Source: Rhodoferax sp. (GTDB lineage: Bacteria; Pseudomonadota; Gammaproteobacteria; Burkholderiales; Burkholderiaceae_C). From it: 51,346 nt of DNA. The notes beneath the pieces are model-generated. The model worked only from the letters and a program-made list of their open reading frames with translations. It did not search any database and was not told the DNA's origin. Both the position numbers and the translations under genes were made by a program. Below are positions 32,961 to 36,792 of this stretch, piece after piece (positions within the stretch are counted from its first letter, which is position 1; each line of letters starts with the position of its first letter). Where the stretch lies: positions 1 to 51,346 of the forward strand of contig JARLJH010000011.1 in assembly GCA_031291305.1 (NCBI GenBank). The letters are read 5' to 3'.

Positions 32961-34163
32961 TCAGGCAACTTTTGCCAGCCAGGCTTGCGCCAGTCGCACC
33001 CAATAGGTTGCCCCCAGCGGCAACAGTGCATCGTTGAAGTCGTAACTCGCGTTGTGCAGCATGCACGGCCCGCCGCCGTGGCCCATCTCTCGGTGCGCGC
33101 CGTCGCCGTTGGAAATGAAGGCGTAGCAGCCGGGTTTTTGCATCAGCATGAATGAGAAATCTTCCGCCCCCATGGTAGGTTCCTGCACCTCCACTTGGTC
33201 CGCCCCGACGATGTCGGCCATCACTTGGCGGCAAAACTCGGCCTCTGGTGCCGTGTTGATGGTGGGCGGGTAGTTGCGATGGAACTCGAAGTCGGCTGTC
33301 ATGCCAAACGCCGCGCAGAGTTGCGCCGTCATGTCTTGCATGCGCTGCTCGATCTGATCGAGCACCGCCAGCGAGAAAGTGCGCACCGTGCCTTGCAGCT
33401 CCACGCTGTTGGGGATGACGTTGTTGGCCTCGCCCGCGTGGATCATCGTCACTGAGATCACCGCTGCGTCAATCGGCTTGATGTTGCGGCTGATGATGCT
33501 CTGAAACCCCTGCACCAGCTGGCACGCCACCGGCACCGGGTCCAGCGCGTTGTGCGGCATGGCTGCGTGGCCGCCCTTGCCGCGGATGGTGATCTTGAAC
33601 TCGTTGCTCGACGCCATCACCGGCCCCGGGCTGGCGGCAAAAAAACCAACCTTCGAACCCGGCCAGTTGTGCAGGCCAAACACGGCCTGCATGGGAAATC
33701 GCTCAAACAGGCCGTCCGTGATCATCTCGCGTGCGCCGCCACCACCTTCTTCGGCGGGCTGGAAGATCAGATAGACAGTGCCGTCGAAGTCGCGATGGCT
33801 GCTGAGGTATTGGGCTGCGGCCAGCAGCATGGCGGTATGGCCGTCGTGCCCGCAGGCGTGCATCTTGCCGGGCTGCGTGCTGGCGTGGGCGAAGGTGTTG
33901 GCTTCGGTCATGGGTAGCGCGTCCATGTCGGCGCGTAGGCCCAGGGCCCGCCCGCTTTTCCCCCCGTCGCGCCCGTGCACGATGCCGACCACGCCGGTGG
34001 TGCCCAGGCCACGGTGGATGGGAATGCCCCATTCCGTGAGTTTTGCAGCTACAACGTCGGCGGTGCGGATTTCTTCGAAACATAGTTCGGGATGGGCGTG
34101 GATGTCACGTCGCAGGGCGGCAATGGTGGGGCTTTGCTGGGCAATGGCGTCGATGAGTTTCAT
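32961..34163 (-). CDS. M20-family amidohydrolase (hippurate hydrolase-like)
   Basis: A cytoplasmic metallopeptidase-fold amidohydrolase of 400 residues, probably hydrolysing N-acyl amino acids. Visible metal-site motifs are GLRADMDALP (about 75-84), HACGHDGHTAM (102-112), the catalytic Glu pair in QPAEEGGGGA (about 138-147) and HNASYDFND near the C-terminus. Substrate specificity in this family (hippurate, IAA-conjugates, acetyl-diaminopimelate) cannot be told from sequence. Its stop faces the repeat copy after coaX; upstream lies the large hairpin region. Confidence 0.92.
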   Translation of the reverse strand: MKLIDAIAQQSPTIAALRRDIHAHPELCFEEIRTADVVAAKLTEWGIPIHRGLGTTGVVGIVHGRDGGKSGRALGLRADMDALPMTEANTFAHASTQPGKMHACGHDGHTAMLLAAAQYLSSHRDFDGTVYLIFQPAEEGGGGAREMITDGLFERFPMQAVFGLHNWPGSKVGFFAASPGPVMASSNEFKITIRGKGGHAAMPHNALDPVPVACQLVQGFQSIISRNIKPIDAAVISVTMIHAGEANNVIPNSVELQGTVRTFSLAVLDQIEQRMQDMTAQLCAAFGMTADFEFHRNYPPTINTAPEAEFCRQVMADIVGADQVEVQEPTMGAEDFSFMLMQKPGCYAFISNGDGAHREMGHGGGPCMLHNASYDFNDALLPLGATYWVRLAQAWLAKVA

Positions 34164-34321
34164 GTTGGGGGCAGGTTGCAGATGGGTCAGAGATTTGACT
34201 TGGCATTATGAAGCGCCCGGTGAACCCTTTCTGCGGGTGATGCTGTTTGTCGGCGTGACGCCTGGGTGTCCGGTTAATTGGTGCTTGTTCAGTTGGTGTT
34301 GTTATCCAGTGGTGTTGGTGC

Positions 34322-34393
34322 GCCGGGGCGGGTATGGCCAGGGGCCTCATACTGGGGTACCAGAAATCGGCCCCTGGTCATACCCACCCCGGC
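34322..34393. repeat. Hairpin A with conserved 22-nt loop
   Basis: Arms 34322-34346 and 34369-34393 pair over 25 bp with two mismatches (GCCGGGG... to ...CCCCGGC). The loop (34347-34368) begins TCATACTGGGG and ends TACCAGAAATC. The same loop occurs inverted in hairpin B, whereas the stems are unrelated. Confidence 0.85.
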
Positions 34394-34509
34394 TTGATCA
34401 GTGGCTTGTGTGCGCCTGGGTTGAATACCGAAAACCAAAGAGTCCGTATCGCTGTAGTTTGGATTCAGGGATTGGGTTTCCAATTTTCTGCGCACCACAA
34501 ACGCTCGCC

Positions 34510-34585
34510 GCATGGGGGCAGACTGGGCCGGGCGCCGATTTCTGGTACCCCAGTATGAGGCGCCCGGCCCAGTCTGCCCCCATGC
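34510..34585. repeat. Hairpin B with inverted conserved 22-nt loop
   Basis: Arms 34510-34536 and 34559-34585 pair perfectly over 27 bp (GCATGGGGGCAG... to ...CTGCCCCCATGC). The loop 34537-34558 is the exact reverse complement of the loop of hairpin A. Confidence 0.9.
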
Positions 34586-34719
34586 CACCCGTGAAGCTCG
34601 CTCTAGTCGCCCCATGTCAACCAAGAAGCCATGCGCGCGAAAGGTACTGACCCGGACCGCCAACGTTTTCTCAAAGCCGGATATGCTCTTTCATCCATTT
34701 CGCCATCGAGAACCCCGCC

Positions 34720-36792
34720 ATGCCCCACAGTAGCCGCCAACCAAGTGAGCAAGCCATTCAGATTAAAGGCGCCTGCCCGCACGATTGCCCCGACACCTGT
34801 TCGCTGTTGACCACGGTGGACAACGGCGTGGCCGTCAAGGTGCAGGGCAATCCGGCGCACCCGCATACCGACGGCGTGTTGTGCACCAAGGTGTCGCGCT
34901 ACACCGAGCGCACCTACCACCCGGAGCGTGTGCTGCAGCCCATGAAGCGCGTCGGACCCAAGGGCAGCGGCCAGTTTGTGCCGGTGAGTTGGGACGCGGC
35001 GCTGAGCGATATCGCCTCGCGTCTGAAAGCCATTGCCGCACGCGACCCGCAGGCTGTGCTGCCCTACAGCTACGCTGGCACCATGGGCCTGGTGCAGGGC
35101 GAAAGTATGGCTGGGCGATTTTTCAACAAGCTGGGAGCCTCGCTGCTGGATCGCACCATCTGCGCCTCGGCTGGTGGGGCCGGACTGGTGCACACGCTGG
35201 GTGGCAAGGTTGGCACGCGGGTGGCGTTTTTTGCGGAATCGAAACTGATTCTGATCTGGGGCAGCAACTCGATTGCCAGCAACCTGCATTTCTGGCGCTA
35301 CGCCAACCAGGCCAAACGCGACGGCGCCAAGATCATCTGTATCGACCCGCGCAAGAGCGAGACGGCTGATAAATGTCATGAACATATTGCCTTGTTGCCA
35401 GGTACTGACGGGGCTTTGGCGCTATCGATCATGCAGCAGTTGATTGTCCACGACTGGCTCGATCACGACTACCTGGCCAACTACACCTTGGGTTGGGAAC
35501 AGCTGCGCGAGCGCGCACTGCAATGGCCTCCTGAGCGTGCAGCGGCGGTCTGCGGCATCACGGTCGCGCAAATCGAGTCGCTGGCGCGTGATTACGGTGC
35601 CAGTGTCAAAACTGGCGCGCCCGTCGCCATTCGCATGAACTATGGTTTGCAGCGTGTGCATGGTGGTGGCAACGCGGTGCGACTGATCGCCATGCTGCCC
35701 GCGCTGATTGGTGCCTGGCGGCACCGTGCTGGTGGCGTTTTGCTGTCAAGTTCAAGTGCTTTCCCGGTGCAGCGTGCCAAGTTGGAGCGGCCAGACTTGC
35801 GGGCTGGGCGCAGCCCACGCACCATCAACATGAGCACCATCGGCGACGACTTGTTGCACCCGGCCAGCGCAGAATTTGGCCCGGCTATTGAGGCGCTGAT
35901 CGTTTACAACAGCAACCCGGTGGCCATCGCGCCTGATTCGGCCAAGGTTGTGCAGGGCTTTGCGCGTGAAGACCTGTTCACCGTGGTGCTGGAGCATTTC
36001 CAGACCGACACCGCCGACTACGCTGACTACATCCTGCCCGCCACGACACAACTCGAGCATTGGGACGTGCATTCCAGCTACGGCCACACCGACGTGTTGC
36101 TGAACCGCCCGGCCATCGCTCCGGTCGGCCAAGCCAGGCCCAACACGCAGATCTTTCGGGAACTGGCTGCGCACATGGGTTTCACCGATGCCTGCTTTGC
36201 CGATACCGATGAAGCACTGTGCCGCCAGGCTTATGGTGATGCGGTGGATTTCGACACCTTGTTGGACAAGGGCTTTGTCACGCTGGATACCCCCGAAGCA
36301 CCGTTTGCCCAGGGCCGCTTTCCCACGCCGTCGGGCAAATGCGAGTTTTTCAGCCAACGTCTGGCTGATCGCGGGCTGGACGGTTTGCCCGACCACGTGC
36401 CCAATCATGAAGCACCGGGTTCCTCGGCGGCCTATCCACTGGCGATGATCTCGCCACCGGCGCGCAACTTCTTGAATTCGAGCTTTGTCAACGTCCAGAG
36501 CCTGCGCGACACCGAGGGCGAGCCGCGGCTGGAAATGCACCCGCAGGACGCCGCCACACGTCAAATTCAGGACGGTGACACCGTGCGTGTCTTCAACGCC
36601 CGCGGTGAACACCGCTGTCGCGTCAGCCTGAACCACCGGGCCCGCCCCGGCGTGGTCCACGGCCTGGGCGTCTGGTGGCGCAAATTCGGCCTCAATGGCA
36701 CGAACGTCAACCAGCTCACCAGCCAGGCGCTCACCGACCTGGGTAACGCGCCGACGTTTTACGACTGCCTGGTGGATGTGCAGGCGGCTTGA
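34720..36792 (+). CDS. Molybdopterin oxidoreductase, DMSO-reductase superfamily
   Basis: A 690-residue cytoplasmic-type Mo-bisMGD enzyme without a visible Tat signal. N-terminal cysteines 19, 23, 27 and 55 (ACPHDCPDTC ... VLCTK) fit an Fe-S cluster domain with unusual C-x3-C-x3-C spacing. Next come the molybdopterin-binding domains (LLDRTICASAGGAG, LIWGSNSIASN, YNSNPVAIAPD, ADYADYILPATTQLEHWD) and a C-terminal dinucleotide-binding domain with GDTVRVFNARGE. No dedicated electron-transfer subunits or chaperone are next to it. The substrate is unknown; automatic labels such as formate dehydrogenase would be over-interpretation. The ATG at 34720 follows the hairpin region. Confidence 0.88.
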   Translation: MPHSSRQPSEQAIQIKGACPHDCPDTCSLLTTVDNGVAVKVQGNPAHPHTDGVLCTKVSRYTERTYHPERVLQPMKRVGPKGSGQFVPVSWDAALSDIASRLKAIAARDPQAVLPYSYAGTMGLVQGESMAGRFFNKLGASLLDRTICASAGGAGLVHTLGGKVGTRVAFFAESKLILIWGSNSIASNLHFWRYANQAKRDGAKIICIDPRKSETADKCHEHIALLPGTDGALALSIMQQLIVHDWLDHDYLANYTLGWEQLRERALQWPPERAAAVCGITVAQIESLARDYGASVKTGAPVAIRMNYGLQRVHGGGNAVRLIAMLPALIGAWRHRAGGVLLSSSSAFPVQRAKLERPDLRAGRSPRTINMSTIGDDLLHPASAEFGPAIEALIVYNSNPVAIAPDSAKVVQGFAREDLFTVVLEHFQTDTADYADYILPATTQLEHWDVHSSYGHTDVLLNRPAIAPVGQARPNTQIFRELAAHMGFTDACFADTDEALCRQAYGDAVDFDTLLDKGFVTLDTPEAPFAQGRFPTPSGKCEFFSQRLADRGLDGLPDHVPNHEAPGSSAAYPLAMISPPARNFLNSSFVNVQSLRDTEGEPRLEMHPQDAATRQIQDGDTVRVFNARGEHRCRVSLNHRARPGVVHGLGVWWRKFGLNGTNVNQLTSQALTDLGNAPTFYDCLVDVQAA

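Follow-up and report, generated by a model that had tools for sequence, protein, structure and literature searches.

The two long hairpins at positions 34322 to 34585 of the window, by which we mean the whole stretch of 51,346 nucleotides of Rhodoferax sp. DNA that was analysed, are one copy of an intergenic hairpin-pair family of Comamonadaceae-type bacteria (Rhodoferax, Limnohabitans, Polaromonas and relatives). The reading that we prefer, and to which we give perhaps an even chance of being right, is that these hairpins are structural sites, i.e. inverted pairs of an approximately 27-bp stem of nearly free sequence with a GATTT/YATGA loop, read by a protein on a single strand, most likely of DNA.

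The hairpin pair and its neighbours

Hairpin A (34322..34393, minus strand) consists of 25 paired positions, 34322-34346 with 34369-34393, around a 22-nt tip (34347..34368, minus strand); 23 of the 25 pairs are Watson-Crick, the remaining two being one of the G-T and one of the A-C type. It is followed by a spacer of 116 bp (34394..34509, without strand) and by hairpin B (34510..34585, plus strand), where 27 perfect pairs, 34510-34536 with 34559-34585, enclose the same tip in inverted orientation (34537..34558, plus strand; 22 nt, the exact reverse complement of the tip of A). The initial annotation had described these unlike stems of 25 and 27 pairs, the exactly complementary 22-nt tips and the 116-bp core, and all of this was confirmed. 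Each tip contains a small stem of its own (CTGG with CCAG, closed by a 4-nt loop), and the unpaired part thus comes down to a 5x5 internal loop plus a tetraloop. The GATTT...TATGA strand is the minus strand in A and the plus strand in B and reads outward in both, i.e. leftward and rightward, respectively; the distance from tip to tip is 168 nt. The R1 covariance model matches A at G000:C41:34318-34397:- with 79.2 bits and B at G000:C41:34508-34587:+ with 91.8 bits, G000 being the window's genome. Folding energies calculated for the two hairpins as RNA are -63 to -75 kcal/mol (z -8.2 to -11.1), the z values for DNA being -7.6 to -12.3. Two matches to the tip (up to 3 mismatches) are observed in the window and none in 100 window shuffles.

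The pair lies upstream of both of its neighbours, in a divergent gene context: on one side there is an amidohydrolase gene (32961..34163, minus strand; TIGR01891, over the cut-off) and on the other a gene for a molybdopterin oxidoreductase-like protein (34720..36792, plus strand; all matches below the curated cut-offs). Both tips are unchanged in the orthologous locus of two other genomes, G004 and G054 (79% identical over the stretch). A degenerate third trace of the element had been suspected at 34207-34220; a similar TTATGA(A/G)GC, however, is found upstream of the amidohydrolase gene where hairpins are present (G004, G054) as well as where no tip was found (G005, G024, G025), and thus the trace belongs to the neighbouring gene and not to the element. 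In the orthologues of window positions 34170-34720 from G005 (L263) and G024 (L264) another long palindrome, of the GGGTCATGCG ... CGCATGACCC type, is located where the window has the hairpin pair.

Recurrence and spread of the family

The initial annotation proposed an element with a fixed loop and a variable stem, and the tip does recur elsewhere, in paired inverted copies with differing self-complementary stems. Allowing up to 3 mismatches, we find it 20 times in the window's genome, as opposed to 0 for the reversed control. With up to 2 mismatches it is present in 34 out of 60 genomes of the genus and in 13 out of 200 family genomes (9 of 141 genera), the highest number per genome being 61; both samples contain one genome per species and include the window's genome. 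The R1 model, used with stricter filters, finds hairpins in 40 of the 200 family genomes (34 of 141 genera) and, at the level of the class, in only 2 of 274 genomes, both from the hairpin-bearing family. The tip pattern itself (up to 2 mismatches) is present in 6 of the 274 class genomes; four of these are not members of the family and show one match each, with 1-2 mismatches, and we regard these matches as chance. Named records with the tip belong to Rhodoferax, Limnohabitans, Polaromonas, Curvibacter, unclassified relatives and one MAG titled Singulisphaera (at least 117 stretches). The exact tip pattern was not found in viral contigs, and the window copy had no DNA match in plasmid and phage collections, a comparison that would miss the tip on another stem. 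In the Polaromonas genome with 61 tips there are 17 alignable copies of a repeat of about 230 bp whose flanks are largely different, from which we conclude that the family has spread by copying, at least in that genome. The copy totals given here and below (270, 291, 296, 297 and 304) differ because of the flank lengths or gene calls required by the scripts and because some loci were fetched later.

At the gathering score of Rfam the window gives only a tRNA and 20 hairpin loci give no match; a permissive regional scan yielded 41 sub-gathering matches, mostly to microRNA models but also to C4, MAT2A_F, VA and sraL, and a known Rfam family was thus rejected. No description of the hairpin family was recognised in the open-access literature, surveyed mostly at the level of titles and abstracts and including parts of PMC3733652, PMC6006769 and PMC2817692. 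Open-access papers were also searched for the letters of the tip core, and titles and abstract beginnings offered no related description. The earlier remark that no named element has this design thus stands against Rfam and the open-access paper searches. A betaproteobacterial toxic small RNA was considered as well and dropped, as the literature search showed nothing relevant.

Stem geometry and the constant core

The family combines a fixed geometry with a stem that is free in sequence but covaries. Among 297 distinct copies the pairing frequency is 0.60-0.99 at 25 of the 27 stem positions, and it drops from 0.88 at position 27 to 0.51 at position 28, while the letters of the stem are nearly free. 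Positions 2 and 3 pair weakly (0.44 and 0.31, respectively), and it is here that G.A mismatches sit: if unpaired, the two positions form G.A + A.G on the GATTT strand, e.g. TGAC-tip-GGAA in 86 of the 297 copies, near the same two mismatches of the internal loop. In an alignment of 73 diverse copies 92.1% of the stem cells are paired as compared to 59.5 after shuffling, the covariation score is 0.805 as compared to 0.171 for shuffled and 0.12-0.15 for slid controls, and the observed value for pairs with double-sided changes is reached by 9 of 500 shuffles. For this alignment a minimum of 19 pairable positions was required (269 of 297 copies were kept), and the set was thinned to 80 under 78% identity; of its 75 references L076:592 and L197:6789 were omitted.

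The tip deviates at 23 of 6080 fixed positions; as the copies were found via the tip (up to 3 mismatches) this conservation is partly built in, but the deviations nonetheless pile up at 0. The R1 model finds 31, 33 and 20 matches in G000, G054 and G004, respectively, a few of which are one hairpin read on both strands. The additional matches keep GATTT ... YATGA or close variants of it and have different apices, such as CTG-GGCCTTTGA-CAG, CTG-CGCATTTGG-CAG, the GCAAAGCGAAGCGC type and CTG-CTCG-CAG; in a further variant, GATGT/GTCTGA, the U-A pair within the internal loop became G-C. The constant core is thus the GATTT/YATGA internal loop, which is smaller than the 22-nt tip, and the apex varies. 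This bears on the earlier idea that the constant tip serves the formation of kissing loops between two RNA hairpins: as partners can carry different apices, kissing is not supported as the reason for the constancy, although A and B of one transcript could pair in this way. A loop variant with an insertion of 20-odd nt (GGCTACGCCGAAACTTCGTTTTC type) after GATTT is seen at L020, L077 (three hairpins), L293 and L304. A likeness of the internal loop to K-turn or hammerhead motifs was rejected, the bulge that these motifs require being absent.

Persistence at fixed loci

In many species the element occupies the same loci, and there are signs that its folding is under selection. There are 103 locus types with hairpins, 20 of which have at least four distinct ones; the richest are parE|parC (19 distinct hairpins), boxA|boxB (16), acetaldehyde dehydrogenase|unnamed gene (14) and glyA|nrdR (8), the gene names being derived from 110-residue pieces. 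In 237 comparisons between copies matched by their flanks, rather than proved orthologous, we counted 840 double changes that preserve pairing, 490 changes between Watson-Crick and G.T and 139 between Watson-Crick and A.C. A further 522 single and 220 double changes are non-pairing or unclassed and count against our preferred reading, their numbers being inflated by indels; the comparisons are ungapped and not independent of each other.

The parE|parC locus was matched in 57 of the 60 genus genomes, and 33 genomes were examined (31 fetched ones as well as G000 and G021). At least one tip is present in 21 of the 33, the others being empty or containing genes. The covariation score is 0.394 for the hairpins on the parE side (n=17; 0.170 shuffled) and 0.439 for those on the parC side (n=14; 0.155 shuffled). 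The value for further pair types was reached by 5 of 500 shuffles in the parE-side set, and that for pairs with double-sided changes by 36 of 500 in the parC-side set. The parC-side alignment (A4) uses 14 of 15 hairpins, since the half-hairpin L464:1892 was left out whereas the chimeric L076:592 was kept. The tandem G.A/A.G beside the internal loop is kept in all 14.

Two further explanations can be judged from these data. According to the initial annotation a copying mechanism might rewrite the stems, but there is no need for it, as the differences between flank-matched copies are compensatory and wobble changes made in place; moreover, the fixed mismatches, i.e. the internal loop and the tandem G.A/A.G of the parC side, stay "uncorrected". 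The same mismatches argue against palindrome correction alone, in which template switching during replication keeps the arms complementary without selection. This process would produce pairing-preserving double changes such as the 840 found, but it would be expected to repair the 5x5 internal loop and the parC-side tandem mismatches as well, and it gives neither a strand bias nor a limit at 27 bp; we consider it very unlikely, indeed the least probable of all the explanations discussed here.

A few single parE-parC regions deserve description. In G003 (L437) only 74 bp are left between the genes, with the apparent foot of a right hairpin arm (GCCTGCCTCGCGGGTT), and this remnant is perhaps a deletion scar of the element. 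An AlwI-like restriction-modification pair is located in this region in G045 (L466), and hydrolase and ABC-transporter genes (names from reading) in G002 (L465); the spot looks like an insertion hot spot. A lytic transglycosylase-like gene (by reading) lies between parE and parC in G010 (L461) and G036 (L462); other species may have lost this gene or have something else in its place.

Pair arrangement and strand preference

The hairpins are mostly arranged as divergent pairs whose partners have unlike stems. Neighbouring tips follow each other in "+ then -" order in 98 cases, 93 of which are 83-278 nt apart, and in "- then +" order in only 3 cases, all more than 1.5 kb apart; there are 8 neighbours in the same orientation, 2 of them close. 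In the "+ then -" order both GATTT strands of a pair are directed outward. The stems of partners are seldom the same: 5' arms that are at least 80% alike were seen in 1 of the 98 pairs. A tip-bearing partner is lacking in 101 copies. In 18 of these a second long hairpin lies at a distance of up to 400 bp, in all cases on the inner side (6 of 101 in controls); the remaining 83 have none within this distance, which counts against our preferred reading and, together with the 8 same-orientation neighbours, indicates that the inverted pair is common but not obligatory.

Among 95 paired elements 65 are located between tandem genes, 15 between convergent and 6 between divergent ones, a flank is missing in 9, and 8 overlap a called gene; these counts rely on a home-made gene caller and take loci of related species separately. 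Three of the 6 divergent elements are the window locus and its two orthologues. Spacers differ between loci and species, and the sequence adjoining the hairpin has almost nothing in common over 291 copies; CCA precedes many class-1 stems (57 of 118 examined). An autonomous transposase within the widely spaced pairs was rejected, the five checked or nearby loci holding ordinary genes. One locus, L077, holds an apparent IS5-type transposase and another, L076, restriction-modification genes (names from reading).

There is a strand preference for GATTT...TATGA. At stem positions 4-27 the tip strand has 609 mismatches of the A-C type as compared to 132 of the G-T type, which is equivalent to an excess of G.T on the GATTT strand. 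As RNA the GATTT strand is the more stable one in 272 of 304 copies and the less stable one in 17, with a mean advantage of 7.0 kcal/mol. The ratio of G.T to A.C is 117:23 in hairpins that are sense (n=64) and 130:18 in hairpins that are antisense (n=63) to tandem genes, 57:9 in the convergent context (30 hairpins) and 21:10 in the divergent context (12 hairpins). The weaker bias in the last group runs against our preferred reading, as does the window pair itself, which has no strand bias (one mismatch of each kind in A and none in B). The equality of sense and antisense hairpins shows that the preference goes with the element and that selection does not act on the neighbouring mRNA; the selected form is more likely to be a hairpin in single-stranded DNA, or an RNA made inside the element.

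It is in this light that an action as structured RNA has to be considered. Promoters in the spacer could give two divergent, outward RNAs, each ending in a hairpin read by a protein such as a double-strand RNase, or else the last hairpin of any crossing transcript could be the active one. The geometry suits both versions, as the last hairpin reached by transcripts from within the spacer, or by those running across a paired element, is the one in the preferred orientation, and so does the higher RNA stability of the GATTT strand; tolerance of G.U and tandem sheared G.A are also typical of RNA. However, a bias that is as strong antisense as it is sense to tandem genes argues against read-through mRNA, the spacers vary and hardly any sequence apart from CCA is common next to the hairpins, and neither a terminator T-run nor an Rfam match is found. 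A T-run follows the hairpin on the GATTT strand in 1 of 304 copies, where 3.8 are expected from shuffled outer flanks, and an intrinsic terminator was rejected for this reason; on the other strand the raw count is 12 of 304. We regard the RNA alternative as a genuine possibility, though not a probable one. The equal bias, the variable spacers and the missing terminator favour, but do not prove, the DNA form of our preferred reading. As G.T and tandem G.A are compatible with either RNA or DNA, the step involving single-stranded DNA is founded mainly on the sense/antisense comparison.

Links to mobile DNA

In 27 of 296 copies (among them L117, L123, L141, L154, L189, L191, L195 and L211) the hairpin forms the middle of a larger palindrome, whose constant arms are of the AATTGGGGTCAGATCAACATTAATTT type and contain GGGGTCAG. 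The other 269 do not have GGGGTCAG arms on both sides, 8 of them having an arm on one side only, and the arms also occur as short dimers without a hairpin (6 cases). GGGGTCAG fits GGGGWSAS, which section 16 of PMC3733652 gives as the consensus of TIRYT, i.e. terminal inverted repeats associated with Y1 transposases. The window's genome has a Y1 protein of 231 aa (Pfam Y1_Tnp) that, judged by its length and Y-motif, resembles subclass 2.1 of PMC6006769; that paper is reported to have no REP near Y1 genes of this subclass. The gene (L322:1171-1866, minus strand, and its relatives) is single-copy and near-universal, being present in 182 of 200 family genomes, as if domesticated. By a cross-count made by hand it occurs in 39 of the 40 genomes with R1 hairpins and in 143 of the 160 without. 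Its presence in nearly all hairpin genomes counts against our preferred reading, and it may yet be a partner.

The family might accordingly be pictured as a mobile element of the REP/TIRYT kind; a Y1 (HUH) transposase would recognise the hairpins and move the element, whose persistence at loci would be slow decay and nothing else. The 17 Polaromonas copies in largely different flanks, the palindromes whose arms fit GGGGWSAS (PMC3733652), the patchy spread and the Y1 gene in 39 of 40 hairpin genomes all agree with this picture. On the other hand, the gene is nearly as common where hairpins are lacking, no R1 hairpin was found within up to 1.5 kb on either side of it in the 15 loci scanned of 26 fetched, tblastn found no Y1 gene in the other fetched loci, and flank-matched copies keep the structure of tip and stem. 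The Y1 transposase was therefore rejected as a proven partner, and the REP-like transposase suggested by the initial annotation is not demonstrated by these data; a purely mobile origin appears doubtful to us. Structural sites read by a protein are still the reading that we prefer, and it counts against them, too, that the searches found no protein partner of the hairpins.

A restriction-modification gene pair is inserted at parE|parC in two genomes. In G047 (L464) genes for a BglII-like endonuclease and an N6/N4 methylase start directly after GATTTCTGG of a half-hairpin; in G021 (L076) closely similar restriction-modification translations follow directly after GATTTCTGG. In both, the gene pair is followed, in the same orientation, by GATTTCTGG again and by the remainder of the parC-side hairpin. 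In L464 the similarity of the two half-hairpins extends along the arm, whereas in L076 it is confined to the last 20 or so nt. These junctions are what one would expect of a recombination site at which cassettes enter at the hairpin tip, as at integron attC sites. However, they involve one gene pair at one locus in two genomes, and one shared ancestral event, a duplication or homologous recombination would explain the insertion too, so that we hold a recombination site to be very improbable. A similar methylase (by reading) is located between parE and the contig end in G013 (L463), without the GATTTCTGG junction.

Comparison with known systems

The hairpins can be compared with several known structures. 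In the attC sites of integrons, the structure is read on one strand, the sequence is largely free and mismatches fix the strand, all of which is similar to the present family; in attC, however, the constant part is at the foot, whereas here it is at the tip, and here the pairs are inverted. NEMIS and similar miniature elements have hairpin-forming ends of 26-27 bp that are cut by RNase III. They share with our hairpins the approximate stem length and the intergenic location, but the ends of NEMIS form one joint hairpin, while here each end folds alone and the stems differ.

There is also a likeness in general features to the REP/BIME/REPIN sequences (GTAG and CGTC families), as they are described in PMC3733652: both are intergenic multi-copy hairpins with inverted dimers, heterodimers with unlike stems, G-T pairs in the stems and a patchy species spread, in mostly tandem or convergent gene contexts. 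The dimer trait is evident in the 98 inverted neighbours, 93 of them at 83-278 nt between tips. According to the same source, the CGTC REP families have no known transposase, a feature in which they can be likened to the hairpins described here. At the same time, REP stems are 5-13 bp long and defined per family (Table 1 of PMC3733652), as opposed to a stem of about 27 bp with nearly free sequence and a constant part near the tip. In 13-nt windows before the stem a GTAG tag occurs in 6 of 291 copies, without excess over four windows further out (6, 4, 13 and 31), which led us to reject a GTAG-type REP; a CGTC tag occurs in 25 of 291 as compared to 13, 9, 6 and 9 further out, a slight excess but no defining tag, and the CGTC type was rejected as well. 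The present family thus differs from REP in tag, stem size and transposase link. For a REPIN mobilised by a RAYT one would look for a Y1 gene flanked by the repeats, and R1 had no match in the 15 Y1 loci scanned of 26 fetched. As regards TIRYT, the likeness is in the 27 of 296 copies inside GGGGTCAG arms (PMC3733652 and PMC6006769); the differences are that 269 copies do not have the arms on both sides and that arms occur also without a hairpin.

Proposed mechanism and meaning

In the mechanism that we suggest for the structural sites, a site would consist of about 27 bp of any sequence, followed by the GATTT/YATGA internal loop with its tandem G.A + A.G and by a short apical hairpin. A structure-reading protein would bind or cut the GATTT...TATGA strand when this is single-stranded, in a manner similar to the reading of REP hairpins. 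The single strand would most likely be DNA, either the lagging-strand template or an extruded strand. An inverted pair would present one correct hairpin on either strand, so that the element could work in both directions, and the unlike stems would prevent the partners from folding onto each other.

One may speculate further that the hairpins represent a new class of geometry-coded single-strand sites. A putative protein would recognise 27 bp of duplex, whatever the sequence, together with a cap formed by the tandem-G.A internal loop, and would do so on only one of the strands. Bacteria would retain inverted pairs of such sites over genus-level times at fixed places like parE|parC, and gene cassettes (restriction-modification) would enter at the tip, which would also be the core of transposase-type palindromes. 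Taken as a whole this is a tentative proposal that is rather unlikely to hold in full.

The family amounts to a natural covariation experiment, in which approximately 300 sampled copies keep the stem length, the internal loop and the strand while the letters change, so that much of what is read can be inferred from the sequence. It offers a testable case of apparent selection on a single-strand hairpin that is independent of neighbouring transcription, and the constant internal loop provides a bait for finding the reading protein. If the reader is a DNA-processing enzyme, the REP problem would extend beyond the GTAG and CGTC repeats to the Comamonadaceae.
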